Positions 8,225 through 20,840 of a DNA stretch of 42,306 bases are shown here, piece by piece. Origin of the DNA: a virus; IMG/VR virus record IMGVR_UViG_3300048573_000091, positions 1-42,306 of that record; one strand, given 5' to 3'. A program made the position numbers and the translations under genes. Numbering within the stretch: position 1 is the stretch's first letter; every line of letters starts with the position of its first letter. Under the pieces are notes generated by a model. That model had not been told where the DNA came from. It saw only the letters and a list, made by a program, of their open reading frames with translations, and searched no databases.

Positions 8225-9022
8225 ATGAAATTTATTAAAAGCGTAATTCTTGCCGTTGCAGTTGCTATTGCTTCTGTAGGTTGCACTCGTATTGAAACTG
8301 GTGAAGTTGGTGTACGGGTCAATGCATCAAAACAGATTGAAGGCTCTGAGTTACCTCCCGGTTCGTGGAATCAGACAATGGTTGGTTCTGTGCTTACATT
8401 TCCTACAAAAGATATCTCTGTTACACTTGAAAATAAAACACCAATGACTGCAGACAACAGTGCTCTAGCAGACTTTGATATTACAGTTGTCTACGGTTTA
8501 AATCCTACTTCAGTTGCTGAACTGTACTCAACAAAGAGTCGTAGCTTTCACTCTGAGCACAAAGGTGATATTTATCTGATGCATTCATACATGAGCACTC
8601 TTGTTAACAACGCAGCTTATAAGGTTGTTCGTGGTTACAAATCACTTGAAGTTGCAGACAATCGTGCAAAGATCGAAGAGCAAATTCGTGATACTGTACA
8701 TGAACAACTCAAAGCTGAAAAGCTCGATAACTCTGTTACACTGACTGTTGTGCAAGTGCGTAATATTCTACCTAATGCTGAAATCTTGCAGTCTGCTACG
8801 AACTATGTTCGTGCTCAAAATGAACTGAAGATCAAACAAACTGAAGTTGACATCGCAAAGAAAGAATCTGAACGAATGGCAGCACTGAGTTCTAACTCTG
8901 GTCAATCTATCGCTTATATGCAAGCTCAAGCACAAATGAAAATCGCAGAAGGTATTGCATCTGGTAAAGTAAATACGATTGTTGTACCGATGGATTTCAA
9001 AGGTATGATTAACGTTAAGTAA
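8225..9022 (+). CDS. SPFH/band-7 (prohibitin-like) lipoprotein
   Basis: A 265-residue protein with an N-terminal signal and lipobox (VAIASVGC; the Cys would be lipidated after cleavage). An SPFH/prohibitin-type domain follows: TGEVGVRV, LPPGSW, a FPTKDISV strand, ADFDITVVYGL, then an Ala/Glu/Lys-rich helix (AQNELKIKQTEVDIAKKESERMAAL would span about 198-222). The start at ATG 8225 has SD AAAGGAA; a TTG further up would put charged residues before the signal. SPFH proteins form membrane-associated ring scaffolds. Its role in this phage is unknown; membrane protection or superinfection control are guesses. Confidence 0.82.
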   Translation: MKFIKSVILAVAVAIASVGCTRIETGEVGVRVNASKQIEGSELPPGSWNQTMVGSVLTFPTKDISVTLENKTPMTADNSALADFDITVVYGLNPTSVAELYSTKSRSFHSEHKGDIYLMHSYMSTLVNNAAYKVVRGYKSLEVADNRAKIEEQIRDTVHEQLKAEKLDNSVTLTVVQVRNILPNAEILQSATNYVRAQNELKIKQTEVDIAKKESERMAALSSNSGQSIAYMQAQAQMKIAEGIASGKVNTIVVPMDFKGMINVK

Positions 9023-10102: not shown

Positions 10103-10813
10103 ATGTATAAAATTTGTAGTAAGTGTAAAGAAGAAAAATTATTAAGTGAGTTTAGTAAGAATAAATGTCAAAAAGACGGTTATAATAATAAGTGTAAGTC
10201 TTGTGTAAAGGTCTATAAAGAAGCTAACAAAAAGCAAATTTCAGAATATAATGCAAAGTATTATGAATGTAATAAAGATCGAATTATAGCACAACATGTT
10301 GAGTATTATGTATCAAACAATGAGAGAATTTTAATAAATGCTGCCTTATATCGTGAAAATAACAAAGAGAAAATTTCTGTAAAAAATGCTGAGTACAGAA
10401 GAGTTAATAAGGAGCGAATTTCACTCCAGTATGTAGATTATTATCAAGCGAATAAAGATAAAATTTCAGCAGCTTTTGTAGAGTATCGTAAAATCAATGG
10501 AGAGAAGATAGCGTGTCGAATGAAAGAGTATCGTCAAACTAATAAAGATAAAATAAATGCTCAAAATGCTGAACGTAGAGCTGCAGAATTACAAGCTACA
10601 CCACCTTGGTTGACCAAATTTGACAAAGAACAGATTGTAGAACTTTACACAATAGCTCAAATGTTCAAACTTTATACTGGTGAAGAGTATCATGTAGATC
10701 ACATAGTACCGTTGAAGGGTAAGACTGTTTGCGGTTTACATGTCCCGTGGAATTTACAAGTTATTCCTGCAAAAGAAAATTTAAGTAAATCCAACAAGCT
10801 ACTACCGGACTAA
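10103..10813 (+). CDS. HNH homing endonuclease with eight 15-residue repeats
   Basis: A 236-residue protein. The N-terminal zinc knuckles are CSKCKEEK (5-12) and CKSC (about 31-34). Residues about 39-158 consist of eight near-perfect 15-residue units of the form Y-[KRY]-x-x-N-[KN]-[DEK]-[KR]-I followed by six variable residues. The C-terminal HNH domain is [20 protein letters not shown] then [17 protein letters not shown]. It is a paralogue of 1513-2097. The repeats predict a long helical, basic linker between the zinc knuckle and the nuclease. Upstream SD is weak (CGGGAA), consistent with control at the leader. Confidence 0.9.
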
Positions 10814-13128: not shown

Positions 13129-14880
13129 ATGGCAGCTTTTGTTAGACACGAAGCTTGCCCTAACTGCGGAAGCAAAGATAACTTAGCCGTTTACAGTGAC
13201 GGTAGTTATTTTTGCTTTTCGCACTGTGGGTACAAATCAGTAAGTGAAGAGTTCAAAGAGCAAAACCCTAGACAAAACTCTAAGGTTCAATCTAAAGTCC
13301 GATCAAACGTTAAAAAGGAAGAAGATATGGAAGTTAAACCAAGTACAAAACCTGCACTGACACCAGAGCAAAATGCAGAGATTAAGGCAGAGACTTCTGT
13401 TAAGGCTAAGGGCTTTCGCGGGATTGATAATGATATCAGCAAATACTTCGGAGTTCGTTATTCTTTCGCAGAAGATACTGGAGAGGTCATTGAACAATAT
13501 TACCCTTGCACTCAAGATGGGCAACTATCTGGATATAAAATTCGAGAAGTACCGAAGAATTTTCGTTCAGTTGGTCGTACAGGTGCTGATTGTGAATTAT
13601 TCGGGCAATTTAGGTTTAATCGTGGTGGTAAATATGTGATCATCACTGAAGGTGAACTTTGTGCTTTATCTGCATATCAAATGCTATCTGAGTATAACCA
13701 ATCAAAAAGTGACGGTGTTTTTGAGACAGCAGTAGTTAGTCCTACGACAGGAGCTAATTCTAAAAAGCAAATCGCAGCACAGTATAAATTCTTTGATAGT
13801 TTTGACAATATTATTGTTTGTTATGACAATGACAAAGCAGGTAAAGAAGCAGCAGAAGAGATTATAAAGTTTCTACCGAAAGGTAAAGTCCGTATTATGC
13901 AGATGCGTAAGAAAGATGTTAATGAGTACCTTGAAGCTGGGATGCAAAAAGAGTTTATTCACGATTTTTATAGCGCACAACCATATGTACCCGTTGGTGT
14001 TATGGCATCTACAAGTATTTACGAAAGGATGCTAGAACAAGTAGCCGAAGAGAAAATTCCGTTACCTCCTGTGTTTGATAAACTAAATACAATGTTAGGT
14101 GGTGGTTTATCTTTAGGCCACTGTTATACTTGTTCTGGAGTTACCGGAGGAGGTAAAACATCATTAACCAACGAGATGATCTATCACTGGATTTTTAACT
14201 CTCCACATACAATTGGTGTTGTCAGTTTAGAGCTTTCTGCTAGTCAATATGGAGAGGCACTCCTGAGTAGGCACTTACAGAACAAGATTGCAAAAATGCA
14301 AGCAGAAGAGAAGATGAATTACTTGCGTTCGGATAAGGTACGAGAAGCAGCTAAAGAGTTATTTGAGTTTCCCGATGGCCGCCCAAGGTTTATGTTAGTA
14401 GATGATCGTGACTCTACTCTTGAACAGTTACAAGAGGTTGTTGAAGAAATGGTAATTTGCTCAGGTGTGAAGCTAGTTGTAGCCGATCCTTGGACGGATA
14501 TCGGTGTAGACGGACTATCTATAGATGAACAAGCTGTAGCTATGAAGTGGATTAAATCTATGATTAAAAGCCACAATTGCTCTTTCTTTTTAATTAACCA
14601 TGTGCGTAAATCACAATCCGGGCAGAAAGATCAATCATCTGGTGCTATGATTTCAGAGGCTGATATTATGGGGTCAAGTTCTATTATGAAAAGCTCCAGT
14701 GCTAATATTCTACTTGTACGCAATAAGATGGCAGAAGAGGATTTAGAGCGAAACACTACCCATATCTATCTGAGTAAGAATCGTCTTTTATCGGAAACCG
14801 GCCCTGCTGGAGATGTTTATTATGATTCTCAGACCCATACACTGCACAGTTTAGAAGCTTGGCTTAACTCTTCAGTGTAA
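13129..14880 (+). CDS. DNA primase-helicase (T7 gp4-like)
   Basis: A 583-residue bifunctional enzyme that primes lagging-strand synthesis and unwinds DNA at the fork. Domains in order: a zinc-binding domain (C10, C13, C29, C33 in ACPNC and FCFSHC); a TOPRIM primase core with TEGE near 168 and YDNDKAGKEAAE near 230; a RecA-like DnaB-type helicase with Walker A GVTGGGKTS (about 337-345), Walker B LVVADPW (about 448-454) and the NHVRKS motif. The length is close to T7 gp4 (566). SD AAGGAG precedes the ATG. A homing endonuclease with its own promoter follows. Confidence 0.93.
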   Translation: MAAFVRHEACPNCGSKDNLAVYSDGSYFCFSHCGYKSVSEEFKEQNPRQNSKVQSKVRSNVKKEEDMEVKPSTKPALTPEQNAEIKAETSVKAKGFRGIDNDISKYFGVRYSFAEDTGEVIEQYYPCTQDGQLSGYKIREVPKNFRSVGRTGADCELFGQFRFNRGGKYVIITEGELCALSAYQMLSEYNQSKSDGVFETAVVSPTTGANSKKQIAAQYKFFDSFDNIIVCYDNDKAGKEAAEEIIKFLPKGKVRIMQMRKKDVNEYLEAGMQKEFIHDFYSAQPYVPVGVMASTSIYERMLEQVAEEKIPLPPVFDKLNTMLGGGLSLGHCYTCSGVTGGGKTSLTNEMIYHWIFNSPHTIGVVSLELSASQYGEALLSRHLQNKIAKMQAEEKMNYLRSDKVREAAKELFEFPDGRPRFMLVDDRDSTLEQLQEVVEEMVICSGVKLVVADPWTDIGVDGLSIDEQAVAMKWIKSMIKSHNCSFFLINHVRKSQSGQKDQSSGAMISEADIMGSSSIMKSSSANILLVRNKMAEEDLERNTTHIYLSKNRLLSETGPAGDVYYDSQTHTLHSLEAWLNSSV

Positions 14881-14886
14881 TTGATC

Positions 14887-14915
14887 TTGCAATTACCTTA
14901 GTGTTGTGGTATAAT
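14887..14915 (+). promoter_or_regulatory. Promoter inside the HNH leader hairpin
   Basis: TTGCAA (14887-14892), 17-base spacer, TATAAT (14910-14915) with an extended TGG. Transcripts would begin near 14922, downstream of the 5' arm of the hairpin at 14893-14945. Confidence 0.78.
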
Positions 14916-14945
14916 ATAATATGTTTAACTGCAACACTGAGGTAA
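14893..14945 (+). promoter_or_regulatory. SD-sequestering hairpin of the homing endonuclease gene
   Basis: The arms at 14893-14906 (TTACCTTAGTGTTG) and 14932-14945 (CAACACTGAGGTAA) pair over 14 bp with one G-U. The 3' arm contains the SD (GAGGTAA) of the ORF at 14948. The promoter -10 lies in the loop. Read-through mRNA from the primase gene forms the hairpin; mRNA from the internal promoter lacks the 5' arm and is free to be translated. Confidence 0.8.
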
Positions 14946-14947
14946 CT

Positions 14948-15859
14948 ATGAATGAAAATTTGATAAACGTTAACAATAAAGTATTAGAACTAGTAAAACT
15001 TGATTTATTTGAGTATGACGAGTCAATTCAAACCTGTTTAAAATGGAAACATCTTAGAATTGGTAACGGTGAAAAATTAGTCCCAAGGCTTAATGGAGGT
15101 AAAGCAGGTAGTATAAATTCTAAAGGATTTCTTATCTTATCGCACAAAGCTAAAGTTTACAGTATTCCAAAAATAGTTTGGATTATGCACAATGGGCCTA
15201 TCCCTGAAGGTTATAGTGTAAGACACATAGATTCCGACAGATTAAATACAAAGATTAGCAATCTTACTTTGAAAAAAGATTCGATTGTCTTTTTAGAAAA
15301 ATACTCTGAAGATATTAAAAATTTTATTATATACGATGAATCTAGTGAAAGTTGTATTAGATGGTTATCTAAAAGTTCAAAAGGTTCTAATATAACTGAA
15401 GGGACATTAGCCGGATCACTAGATACTTTAGATGGTTATTGGAAGCTACACGCTTTTGGGAACAACTATAAAGTTCACAGAATTGTGTGGTTTCTTCACA
15501 ATGGAAAAATACCTGAAGGTTTTCATATAGATCATATTAACGGTAAAAGACATGACAATAGAATCGAAAATTTGAGGTTAGTTGTTCCAGAAATTAATTG
15601 GCGAAATAGGACTAAAAATAAAAATAATACTACAGGTTATAACATGATTTCCTATTATGAAGGTTACAATAACAAGGGGACTTTGATACGGCGTTATGAT
15701 GTAAGCATTAGTTTCAATGGAAAATTTAAGTCTAGATCTTTTTCGTGCCTAAAATATGGAGACGAAGTAGCATTAAAACTTGCAATAGAGTGTAGAGATG
15801 AATTGTTATGTAAGATCAATGCACAAGGTGCTGGATATTCTGACAGACACGGCACGTAA
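14948..15859 (+). CDS. Homing endonuclease with tandem HNH modules
   Basis: A 303-residue protein made of two homologous halves. The first (about 20-115) has the flanking pattern YDES...C.KW, PKIVWIMHNGPIPEG and RHIDSDRLNTKISNL. The second (about 128-225) has YDESSESCIRW, VHRIVWFLHNGKIPEG and IDHINGKRHDNRIENLRLV. Only the second keeps the canonical D-H-I; the first has R-H-I, so the nuclease centre there may be dead and serve for DNA binding. The ATG at 14948 is used because an upstream ATG (14921) is at the transcription start. Arginine codons are mostly AGA/AGG, unlike the polymerase gene next door. Confidence 0.88.
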   Translation: MNENLINVNNKVLELVKLDLFEYDESIQTCLKWKHLRIGNGEKLVPRLNGGKAGSINSKGFLILSHKAKVYSIPKIVWIMHNGPIPEGYSVRHIDSDRLNTKISNLTLKKDSIVFLEKYSEDIKNFIIYDESSESCIRWLSKSSKGSNITEGTLAGSLDTLDGYWKLHAFGNNYKVHRIVWFLHNGKIPEGFHIDHINGKRHDNRIENLRLVVPEINWRNRTKNKNNTTGYNMISYYEGYNNKGTLIRRYDVSISFNGKFKSRSFSCLKYGDEVALKLAIECRDELLCKINAQGAGYSDRHGT

Positions 15860-15865
15860 ATTTAA

Positions 15866-15894
15866 TTGACATGGGCCTCAAGTTGTGATAGACT
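15866..15894 (+). promoter_or_regulatory. Possible promoter of the DNA polymerase gene
   Basis: TTGACA (15866-15871), 17-base spacer, TAGACT (15889-15894) with TGTGA before it. The -35 is perfect, the -10 weak. It overlaps the terminator hairpin at 15875-15910. Confidence 0.45.
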
Positions 15895-15910
15895 TGGGGC
15901 TTATTTATTT
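15875..15910 (+). terminator. Terminator hairpin between HNH gene and DNA polymerase
   Basis: A 9-bp stem (GCCTCAAGT / ACTTGGGGC, one G-U) followed by TTATTTATTT. It lies 15 bases after the HNH stop and just before the polymerase SD (GGAAGGAAG). Confidence 0.65.
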
Positions 15911-15921
15911 GGAAGGAAGAC

Positions 15922-18219
15922 ATGCGTTATATCATTGACATTGAATCTACAAACCTGCTACAAAACGGTTTGGACTATACCTCTATACCTTTTAAGTTAA
16001 AGCCTGACTACAAAGTCTGGTGTGTAGTCGTGCGTAACCTAGACACCAAAGCTGTAGTATCACTGGTCAAAGAACAAATCACAAAAGATAACCTCAAGCG
16101 CCTACTACGAAATTGCACTGAGCTAATTGGTCACAATATCGTTGCTTTTGACTTACCTGTATTAATGCTATACGGTGTACTTGACTACACTGTAGGTTAT
16201 CCCGGTCAACCTAGTACATTGTTTGGTAATCCTGTTCAGATTACAGATACACTTTTGTGGTCTAAACTTCTTAATGCTGATCTCCTTGGTGGTCACAGCC
16301 TCGATGCTTGGGGTAAGCGTTTAGGTAACAACAAGATGCACTTTGAAGAGTGGGATCGTTTCTCTCAGGAGATGCTGGACTACTGTATTCAAGATACAAA
16401 TGTAAACGCTTCGATCTTGCAAGAACTTATCAAAGAACAAGGTAAGCACAACTGGAGCAAACCGTATAGTATGGAAGTTAAGCTCACCGATCTTACGTTG
16501 CGTCAAGAACTCTTTGGTTTTGATTTCAACGTAGAGCTTGCACATAAGAATATTGCAGAACTAACTACATTCATGCAAGACATTGCTAAAACTGTAGACC
16601 CACTGCTACCTAAAAAGCGCATGACACAGGCCAATGCAAGTTTCTATCAGTTACCAAAGATTCGTTTTAAAAAGAACGGTGAAGTCTCAGCTAACCTTCT
16701 AAAGTTCTGTGAGAAAACTGGTGCTTTACTATCTGACGATCAAAAGACAATTACTTTTGAAGGTAAGATATTTCCGATTACTACGGATGAACCTCTAAAG
16801 AATGAAGAGACTGCCGACATTGAAGATATCGATGTTGTCAAAGGCTATTTGATTTCCTTGGGTTGGGTTCCATCTGAAGTCAAAGAACGTGATATCGTCA
16901 AGAAGACTGATAAAAGTGTAAGAGACTATGATGGTATTATTGAAGCTATTGACCGCTATGTCAAGCAAACTGAAACTTCAGTGTTTCGTGACTTGCGTTT
17001 AGAATTGCTGGATATTCGTATGGAAAACTTACGTGCATTCTTGATTAAGAAAATCAACGGTACAAAACCTATTTACCTACCAACTACTCCTAAGCTTACT
17101 GTAGGTGTAGAAAAAGAAATCTGTCCTAATCTTATTTCACTAGGTCAAAAGGCAGAGTTTGTTAAAGATGTAGTGCATTACTATACATATCGTCACCGCA
17201 AGAACTCTATTGCTGGTGGTGCTTTGGATGAAGATGGCGAACCAATGACAGGCTTTCTAAGTGCTGTACGTGAAGATGGTCGTGTGCCTACTCCTGCAGA
17301 TACTCTAGGAGCTAATACTGGACGCTATCGCCATAAGATTGTGTGTAACGTGCCTCGCGTAACTTCACTGTACGGTGAACAAATGCGTACACTGTTTGGT
17401 AGTGGTAAAGGGTTGTGGCAACTAGGTTATGATTTTGCTTCACTAGAGGCACGAGTAATGGGACACTATGTGCTGCCTTATACTGATGGTGAAAACTTAG
17501 CTGCAGCTTTGGTTGCAGAAAAGCCCAACGACATTCACAGTATTAACGCACGTAAGCTTGGGATTGATCGTAGTTCTGCAAAATCGTTCTCTTACGCTGC
17601 GATCTATGGAGCACAACCTAAAAAGCTATCTAAGATGCTTGGCATTAGTGAAGCCGAAGGTCAACGCTTGTTTAACGAATATTGGGATGCTGTACCTGCA
17701 CTCAAAGAATTAAAAGAGCGTGTACAACAAAGGTGGGAAGCAAGTGGCAAGAAGAGCATTCCGGGCCTTGATGGTAGGTTGCTATCAACCCGCAGTAAAC
17801 ACAGCCTTATTAACGTTTTATTCCAGTCTGGTGGTGCTATTGCTGCTAAGTGGTCTGCTGTTCGTTTAGCTCAGGCTATGGAAGAACGTGGTATTCTTGG
17901 CGATCCTTTTAAAGACACCAAGAAAGATGTCAAAGTCTGGTGGTTGATTCACATGCATGATGAACAGCAAATGGCTTGTCATCCTAGTTTACTTAAAGTT
18001 AAAAACTTCGCAACAGAAGATGAAGCAAAGGAATTCGTTCAATCTAATCCCGGTTGTAGTGCTATTGGTCACGGTTCTAAAGGTTCTTATGTTGGACTTA
18101 AGACTGTACCTGTAGAATGTATTGAAGAAGGAATCAAAAAAGCTTGCGAAGAGCTGAAACTTCGTGTAGACTTAGGGTTTGAATACATCCCCGGTATGAA
18201 TTGGGGTCAATGTCATTGA
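15922..18219 (+). CDS. Family A DNA polymerase with 3'-5' exonuclease (T7 gp5-like)
   Basis: A 765-residue replicative polymerase. Exonuclease motifs: ExoI D6-I-E8 in YIIDIEST, ExoII GHNIVAFDLP (about 70-79), ExoIII DYCIQDTNV (about 153-161). Polymerase motifs: A QLGYDFASLEARV (about 500-512), B RSSAKSFSYAAIYGA (about 550-564), C LIHMHDEQQ (about 674-682). All catalytic acids are present, so it should proofread and polymerise. T7 gp5 is 704 residues; the extra length is partly in the 285-400 linker. T7 gp5 uses host thioredoxin as clamp; whether this one does is unknown, though a thioredoxin-like protein is encoded at 33023. SD GGAAGGAAG. Confidence 0.94.
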   Translation: MRYIIDIESTNLLQNGLDYTSIPFKLKPDYKVWCVVVRNLDTKAVVSLVKEQITKDNLKRLLRNCTELIGHNIVAFDLPVLMLYGVLDYTVGYPGQPSTLFGNPVQITDTLLWSKLLNADLLGGHSLDAWGKRLGNNKMHFEEWDRFSQEMLDYCIQDTNVNASILQELIKEQGKHNWSKPYSMEVKLTDLTLRQELFGFDFNVELAHKNIAELTTFMQDIAKTVDPLLPKKRMTQANASFYQLPKIRFKKNGEVSANLLKFCEKTGALLSDDQKTITFEGKIFPITTDEPLKNEETADIEDIDVVKGYLISLGWVPSEVKERDIVKKTDKSVRDYDGIIEAIDRYVKQTETSVFRDLRLELLDIRMENLRAFLIKKINGTKPIYLPTTPKLTVGVEKEICPNLISLGQKAEFVKDVVHYYTYRHRKNSIAGGALDEDGEPMTGFLSAVREDGRVPTPADTLGANTGRYRHKIVCNVPRVTSLYGEQMRTLFGSGKGLWQLGYDFASLEARVMGHYVLPYTDGENLAAALVAEKPNDIHSINARKLGIDRSSAKSFSYAAIYGAQPKKLSKMLGISEAEGQRLFNEYWDAVPALKELKERVQQRWEASGKKSIPGLDGRLLSTRSKHSLINVLFQSGGAIAAKWSAVRLAQAMEERGILGDPFKDTKKDVKVWWLIHMHDEQQMACHPSLLKVKNFATEDEAKEFVQSNPGCSAIGHGSKGSYVGLKTVPVECIEEGIKKACEELKLRVDLGFEYIPGMNWGQCH

Positions 18220-19426: not shown

Positions 19427-19529
19427 CGAAAACCCTTAGTCCATCCGTGGACTAACTGGATAAGTCACAAATCTTCTAAATTTGGCATCATGTGTGTTCA
19501 AATCACACCGGATGGACTAAGGGTTTTCG
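19427..19529 (+). repeat. 21-bp perfect inverted repeat enclosing tRNA-Arg
   Basis: The arms 19427-19447 and 19509-19529 are exact reverse complements. The inner 7 bp are the tRNA acceptor stem; the outer 14 bp (CGAAAACCCTTAGT on the 5' side) extend it coaxially. Such a long helix would block the normal 5' and 3' ends of the tRNA unless cut. Confidence 0.92.
19441..19516 (+). tRNA. tRNA-Arg(UCU)
   Basis: A cloverleaf can be built by hand: acceptor CCATCCG / CGGATGG (7 bp), D arm GAC / GTC with an 11-base loop containing GG, anticodon arm CAAAT-CTTCTAA-ATTTG with anticodon TCT at 19475-19477, a 7-base variable loop, and T arm GTGTG-TTCAAAT-CACAC. Position 33 is U and 37 is A. Discriminator A, with no encoded CCA. 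The T loop and D loop are canonical. It reads AGA/AGG, the arginine codons that dominate the downstream endonuclease gene. The variable loop is two bases longer than usual. Confidence 0.85.
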
Positions 19530-19555
19530 TCTATACTAAATTATATAAGGTAACT

Positions 19556-20572
19556 ATGACTAGAGAAGAATTTTTTAAAATTGCAGCACAATATGGTTCA
19601 AGGGATAAAGTAACATTTAATTGTGTAAGTTGTGGTATTGATCATCAAAGAATTAAAAAGAATATACTCAAATCTTTTAAATCTGATACTGTAGATTTTG
19701 TATTTTGTTCTTTAGATTGTTATTGTAAATTCAACAGTACTATAGTTAATTGTAATTGTTCACACTGCGGTAAAATAATACAAAGAGTTAAAAATCAAGT
19801 TAAAGTTAAAAACTTTTGTAGTTCTTCTTGTGCAGCATCGTTAAACAACACTCTTAGACAAACCAGAAGTGAAGAAAGTCGTGATAAAACAAGTGAATCT
19901 CTAAAAAATTATTGGGAGAATATAACCGGAGATGCAACTTTACAACCTTCTGCCGTGTTAACAGAATGCGGTAACTGTCAAGGACTATTTACTAAATTGA
20001 TAGCCAATAGAAAATATTGTTCTTTGAAATGTGGAAAGGAAAATAGAAGTGATAAGAAAAAGCAAAAGCTTGCAAATGAATCAAGGAGGCATCCCAGATG
20101 TGCTGTATCTTTTGTCCCGTGTAAGAATTGTAGCATAACGATTCTTCGTTCACCTAGTCAAGGTAAACACTCAAAATTTTGTTCAAAAACTTGTCGCAGT
20201 GCATGGCAAAGCGCATTTCAATCTGAAAGGTTAAAGCACTCTGAAAATCGTAAAAATATCGGCAGACACAGAAAGTCATATTTAGAGAGTAGCTTTGAAT
20301 CTTGGTTAACTGAGAATAATATTATTTTTAAGACAGAGGTTCACTACCGTAACACTGAATTAAATAAAAGCTATTACGTTGATTTCTTGTTTGAAGATTT
20401 AAATTTAGTTATTGAACTTGATGGTAAACAACACGAAAAGACAAAAGAAAAAGACGCAATCAGAGATGAGTTCTTAAAAAGGGTGTATAATCTGAATATT
20501 GTGAGGATAACTCATAAAGAATACAAAACAAAAAGTAGAATTGATGAAATTAAGTGTTTACTTATGTTATAA
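19556..20572 (+). CDS. Zinc-finger homing endonuclease with Vsr/PD-(D/E)XK-like nuclease
   Basis: A 338-residue protein. Residues about 20-230 hold several Cys pairs (CVSCG, CSLDC, CSHCG, CSSSC, CGNCQ, CSLKC, CKNCS, CSKTC), enough for about four zinc fingers. The C-terminal domain (about 245-338) reads ESSFESWLTENNI, then YYVDFLFEDLNLVIELDGKQHE and I-V-R-I-T. This matches Vsr-like or EDxHD/PD-(D/E)XK nucleases used by some phage homing enzymes. ATG 19556 has SD AAGGTAA. An upstream in-frame ATG (19490) lies inside the tRNA and is rejected. Its arginine codons are mostly AGA/AGG. Confidence 0.85.
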   Translation: MTREEFFKIAAQYGSRDKVTFNCVSCGIDHQRIKKNILKSFKSDTVDFVFCSLDCYCKFNSTIVNCNCSHCGKIIQRVKNQVKVKNFCSSSCAASLNNTLRQTRSEESRDKTSESLKNYWENITGDATLQPSAVLTECGNCQGLFTKLIANRKYCSLKCGKENRSDKKKQKLANESRRHPRCAVSFVPCKNCSITILRSPSQGKHSKFCSKTCRSAWQSAFQSERLKHSENRKNIGRHRKSYLESSFESWLTENNIIFKTEVHYRNTELNKSYYVDFLFEDLNLVIELDGKQHEKTKEKDAIRDEFLKRVYNLNIVRITHKEYKTKSRIDEIKCLLML

Positions 20573-20772: not shown

Positions 20773-20840
20773 ACACTATAATACTGGTTTAGGGACCAGA
20801 GGTTATAGTAAAGTGTATTTATGTATATTTTACTATAACC
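20773..20840 (+). repeat. Two mutually exclusive hairpins abutting tRNA-Met
   Basis: Hairpin 1: CTATAA (20776-20781) with TTATAG (20803-20808), nested CTGG (20084-type arm at 20784-20787) with CCAG (20796-20799). Hairpin 2: GGTTATAGTAAA (20801-20812) with TTTACTATAACC (20829-20840), 12 bp perfect, ending at the base before the tRNA. The segment 20801-20812 cannot pair both ways at once. Confidence 0.8.

Follow-up and report, generated by a model that had tools for sequence, protein, structure and literature searches.

How can an endonuclease gene located inside a phage replication operon be expressed independently of the transcription that surrounds it? The question is raised by a freshwater phage whose 42,306-base virus record was analysed here at its full length (the window). 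On its plus strand, a primase-helicase gene (Toprim + DnaB-like, 13129-14880; Pfam, PHROGs and the list of open reading frames) is separated from the gene of a family A DNA polymerase, polA (15922-18219; Pfam, PHROGs), by a free-standing gene for a 303-aa HNH endonuclease (14948-15859; Pfam, PHROGs and a match to 1u3e). Judged by its helicase and PolA (Pfam, PHROGs), the phage is not T4-like. We consider it highly probable that the leader of the HNH gene works as a promoter-in-hairpin switch, insulating a free-standing and probably homing endonuclease from the surrounding operon. This reading is based on the anatomy of the leader, computed accessibility, compensatory changes and recurrence on unrelated endonucleases; the start site, repression in the cell, homing, timing and purpose are the parts that we infer.

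The HNH protein contains an HNH_3 domain with an intact DH...N motif (Pfam, E = 1.4e-30), matches phrog_99 (PHROGs, E = 8.6e-58) and aligns to I-HmuI (1u3e, E = 0.0014). The gene is probably of the homing type. Used as a direct query against viral contigs, the protein returned no matches. It is a tandem duplication of HNH_3, with a degenerate motif in the N-terminal copy and an intact C-terminal copy; another HNH gene (L057) comprises the C-terminal half only. Two further endonuclease-like genes are present in the window, one of the endonuclease VII type (10103-10813) and one that is DUF559 / homing-endonuclease-like (19490-20572); a Shine-Dalgarno hairpin switch was looked for upstream of both, and none was seen.

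A promoter inside a Shine-Dalgarno hairpin

A sequence-only reading of this locus had described a 14-bp stem (14893-14906 / 14932-14945) covering the Shine-Dalgarno, with the -10 of a sigma70-like promoter in its loop. The stem is exact, being made up of 13 Watson-Crick pairs and one U-G, and it grows inward through 14907-14910 / 14928-14931 to 18 bp, three of which are G-U pairs. The full 5' arm (14893-14910) and 3' arm (14928-14945) enclose a loop of 17 nt (14911-14927). The Shine-Dalgarno GAGG (14939-14942) indeed lies within the 3' arm, 5 nt ahead of the ATG at 14948, and the -10 (14910-14915) lies in the loop except for its first base, which pairs with A14928. Our promoter scan also recovered the promoter, namely a -35 hexamer TTGCAA (14887-14892), a 17-bp spacer, TG at 14907-14908 and TATAAT at 14910-14915, the extended -10 reading TGGTATAAT (14907-14915). 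The putative anti-Shine-Dalgarno 5' arm doubles as promoter spacer and extended -10. The -35 of the promoter is imperfect, and TTGCAA-17-TGGTATAAT is among the nine top-scoring plus-strand promoter matches of the window; it is an extended -10 sigma70 type, not a T4 middle or late type. From the position of the -10, transcription is predicted to start at about 14921-14923, within the loop. The promoter-in-hairpin observation is thereby confirmed as real. A leaderless start at the in-frame ATG at 14921 was ruled out, this ATG being absent from the ortholog of Curvibacter phage P26059A described below.

The 14893-14945 stem is the strongest of all stems in the 42-kb window, and the hairpin region has a fold z-score of -4.5 (0 of 200 shuffles equally stable). 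When the full 42 kb was shuffled by dinucleotides, 2 of 200 shuffles contained an equally strong stem at any position, a count that does not yet require the stem to coincide with a start site and to enclose a promoter. The second strongest stem of the window (20801-20840; 18 bp, 4-nt loop) is intergenic.

Computed folds agree with the earlier expectation that the Shine-Dalgarno is buried in the long, read-through RNA and exposed in the short, internal one. The Shine-Dalgarno core, taken as AGGT at 14940-14943, has a probability of 0.0025 of being unpaired in a 500-nt read-through RNA versus 0.30 in the RNA from 14922, and the corresponding values for the entire ribosome-site stretch are 0.001 and 0.50. 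With the -10 in the loop and a start at about 14922, the internal RNA is predicted to lack the 5' arm. Another promoter-hairpin, before 21126, was rejected as a switch because its ribosome site is open even in the long RNA.

The mechanism that we propose is as follows. Polymerases reading through from the primase-helicase gene would produce an RNA with both arms, in which the 18-bp stem would form once the 3' arm emerges, burying the Shine-Dalgarno and leaving the endonuclease untranslated. The primase-helicase transcript would read into the hairpin, and the helicase stop lies 12 nt 5' of the 5' arm, so that a terminating ribosome should leave the stem unmelted. A polymerase starting at the extended -10 sigma70-type promoter would yield an RNA from about 14922 without the 5' arm, whose free Shine-Dalgarno would allow the endonuclease to be made. 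Endonuclease output would then be set by its own promoter alone, independently of replication-operon traffic, and the purpose may be to limit a potentially harmful nuclease. Since a sigma70-like promoter could fire early, insulation from read-through is a likelier purpose than delay, and the HNH switch probably serves the former.

Compensatory changes in the leader of phage P26059A

An ortholog of the HNH protein, with 58% identity, is found at the same position in Curvibacter phage P26059A, where its gene follows the same helicase and precedes a different polymerase type. The leader of this gene retains the stem and the promoter at the same place, spacing and TG motif included, the counterparts of the -35 and of the extended -10 being TTGAAA and TGGTAAAAT, respectively. 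All 18 stem pairs hold in both phages and three of them have changed on both sides in a compensatory manner; slid-arm controls gave no double compensatory changes. The shuffle control for this covariation is weak (61/500), with two independent sequences of the HNH leader only. L015 and L094, from a single contig with the P26059A HNH gene and leader, were not counted as independent. A search with the hairpin sequence pattern matched only a contig related to P26059A. The genome paper on P26059A includes the HNH gene in its listing and is silent on promoters and terminators.

The dyad spans the spacer, the -10 and the start, and its arms are well conserved between the window and P26059A. Such a dyad could serve as an operator in the DNA, covering the promoter and recognized by the HNH protein or a repressor, in which case the RNA hairpin would be incidental; I-TevI is documented to repress itself through an operator that overlaps its late promoter (PMC2988022). 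We regard this explanation as unlikely. In each phage the stem of the sense RNA includes three G-U pairs and is free of mismatches, whereas the antisense strand has three mismatches; because the G-U pairs are legal in sense RNA only, an RNA switch is favoured over a DNA operator or palindrome. Moreover, the changes in the arms are compensatory, the Shine-Dalgarno lies under the 3' arm, and the arm sequences are unrelated among unrelated endonucleases. An operator and an RNA switch can nevertheless coexist.

The helicase-polymerase slot and recurrence of the module

The slot between helicase and polymerase is empty in most relatives, in keeping with the sporadic occurrence, at sites that close relatives leave empty, by which homing endonuclease genes are recognized. 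In these genomes the two genes lie 59-61 bp apart, and the gap consists of a promoter inside a terminator-like hairpin. Elsewhere the slot holds HNH_3 genes (L006, L057, L059), phrog_953 HNH genes (L005, L067), endonuclease-VII types (L020, L038, L044), a GIY-YIG type (L035) and the CapR-domain endonuclease phrog_681 (L045, L049, L051, L052); it is an endonuclease hotspot. The slot endonucleases of L005, L006, L057 and L059 are without the promoter-in-hairpin module; a terminator stands in front instead in L035 and L057, and the start overlaps the helicase end instead in L006 and L040. Just past the HNH stop of the window there is a mosaic boundary (15859-15866), the DNA being 90% identical to L012 from 15863 and about 74% identical upstream.

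The four CapR-type genes (L045, L049, L051, L052) present TTGACT-17-TATAAT with an extended -10, TGATATAAT, and this -10 lies within an 18-20-bp stem that covers the Shine-Dalgarno and whose arm sequence is unrelated to that of the window HNH leader. No double changes were found in the covariation analysis of the CapR leaders, and CapR-type relatives were sought in 31 related phage records and not found. The endonuclease-VII type of L038, in the same slot, has a version of the hairpin that buries the AUG start codon. The promoter-in-hairpin arrangement also occurs in an unrelated, GC-rich phage, where TTGACA-17-TATGTT is embedded in the stem ahead of an HNH gene (L174) that follows a structural gene.

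An automatic screen of about 5,100 ORFs (promoter score of at least 10; Shine-Dalgarno unpaired below 0.05 in the read-through and above 0.2 in the internal RNA; difference of at least 18 kcal/mol) detected the module in 7 of 191 endonuclease-like ORFs versus 2 of 4,946 others. The seven matches represent three independent lineages (window/P26059A HNH, CapR and L174), which makes the nominal Fisher value of 3e-9 too favourable; endonucleases are enriched all the same. The majority of the HNH or endonuclease genes sampled do not have the module.

Downstream of the HNH gene, a second promoter-in-hairpin (15866-15904) precedes polA. Recovered by the promoter and terminator scans, it is the same promoter-in-terminator-like hairpin as in the empty-slot relatives, and its promoter reads TTGACA-17-TGTGATAGACT, with TG before the -10 TAGACT. 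This hairpin covaries strongly among 22 sequences, with double changes in 7 of 14 pairs and a covariation score reached by 0 of 500 shuffles. Before other polymerases (L001, L030, L037) the element gives way to a hairpin that is built in the same way but unrelated, and in L067 the polymerase gene that follows the phrog_953 HNH gene is preceded by a promoter of its own, set in a hairpin that covers the Shine-Dalgarno (8360-8400). The other matches of the window-wide promoter-in-hairpin scan, beyond the HNH site and 15871-15904, look like chance. PeSL cassettes of T4-type phages are compact units of promoter plus stem-loop placed between genes, and the element before polA resembles them; in these cassettes the stem-loop acts as a terminator and does not cover a Shine-Dalgarno.

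Given that a promoter-in-terminator hairpin precedes the polymerase gene here and in many relatives, the HNH hairpin might itself be mainly a terminator or a PeSL-type cassette that stops the helicase transcript ahead of the endonuclease gene. This is very improbable, as no T-run follows the 14893-14945 stem (at 14945), the stem is absent from the terminator scan, and its base lies on the Shine-Dalgarno, so that a U tract would have to fall in the start codon region. Less probable still is a role of the stem in RNase III cleavage or stability of the operon mRNA, the promoter being fortuitous: long stems can be sites for RNase III, but P26059A keeps the promoter, its spacing and the TG motif, and promoter, stem and Shine-Dalgarno are found coupled in independent cases.

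Relation to known systems

The HNH leader had been compared by the sequence-only reading with the control of T4 I-TevI, and a matching logic is in fact documented for I-TevI, segB and Aeh1 mobE (PMC2988022). The review by Edgell describes hairpin logic in I-TevI, I-TevII, I-TevIII, segB and Aeh1 mobE, in which the ribosome site is inaccessible in early and middle read-through RNA, while RNA from a nearby promoter lacks the inhibitory structure (PMC2988022). Deletion of the 5' portion raised I-TevI throughout infection (PMC3014915). As is predicted for the window HNH gene, read-through RNA of T4 I-TevI, I-TevII, I-TevIII and segB has its ribosome site covered by a stable stem, the promoter's RNA lacks the 5' arm and frees that site, and the endonuclease gene is embedded in another transcription unit. 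In the T4 group, however, a middle or late promoter gives the timing (PMC2988022), whereas the phage of the window is not T4-like and the promoter of its HNH gene is of the extended -10 sigma70 type. I-TevI is, in addition, an intron-encoded GIY-YIG enzyme, unlike the free-standing HNH gene of the window. Aeh1 mobE shares with the latter a free-standing HNH gene, a ribosome-site hairpin, a promoter nearby and a location in a replication or nucleotide gene cluster; it differs in its T4-type late control and in lying within a ribonucleotide reductase gene and not between primase-helicase and PolA. The T4-like interpretation is supported, and it is strengthened by the compensatory changes in the ortholog and by the same architecture on unrelated endonucleases of the slot. 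The proposed mechanism is thus the T4-type one, operating outside the T4 phages and from a sigma70-type promoter.

The transposase genes of IS10 and IS50 provide another comparison, their read-through RNA folding over the ribosome site and the RNA of their own promoter not doing so. As is proposed for the window HNH gene, a mobile gene is protected from outside transcription. Unlike it, these genes encode insertion-sequence transposases and have the arm near the element end, and we claim no promoter-in-loop geometry for them.

The T4 cases have usually been read as a means of holding back the endonuclease until the late promoters become active. That several unrelated endonucleases of non-T4 phages show this geometry with ordinary sigma70-type promoters suggests selection for read-through insulation. 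We put forward tentatively, with slightly more doubt than belief, that a sigma70-type promoter overlapping an anti-Shine-Dalgarno arm may be a convergent, general insulation device, arising repeatedly on unrelated nucleases, even in one hotspot, and shielding operon and element mutually instead of serving late timing. P26059A is an isolated phage, which makes the model testable. The geometry also offers a sequence signature for locating the start sites of phage mobile genes. A possible further example of the module is the leader of an HNH gene in L117 (1520-1580), in which a clear -10 is absent and a 15-bp stem lies over the Shine-Dalgarno and the ATG, with TTGACT as the -35.
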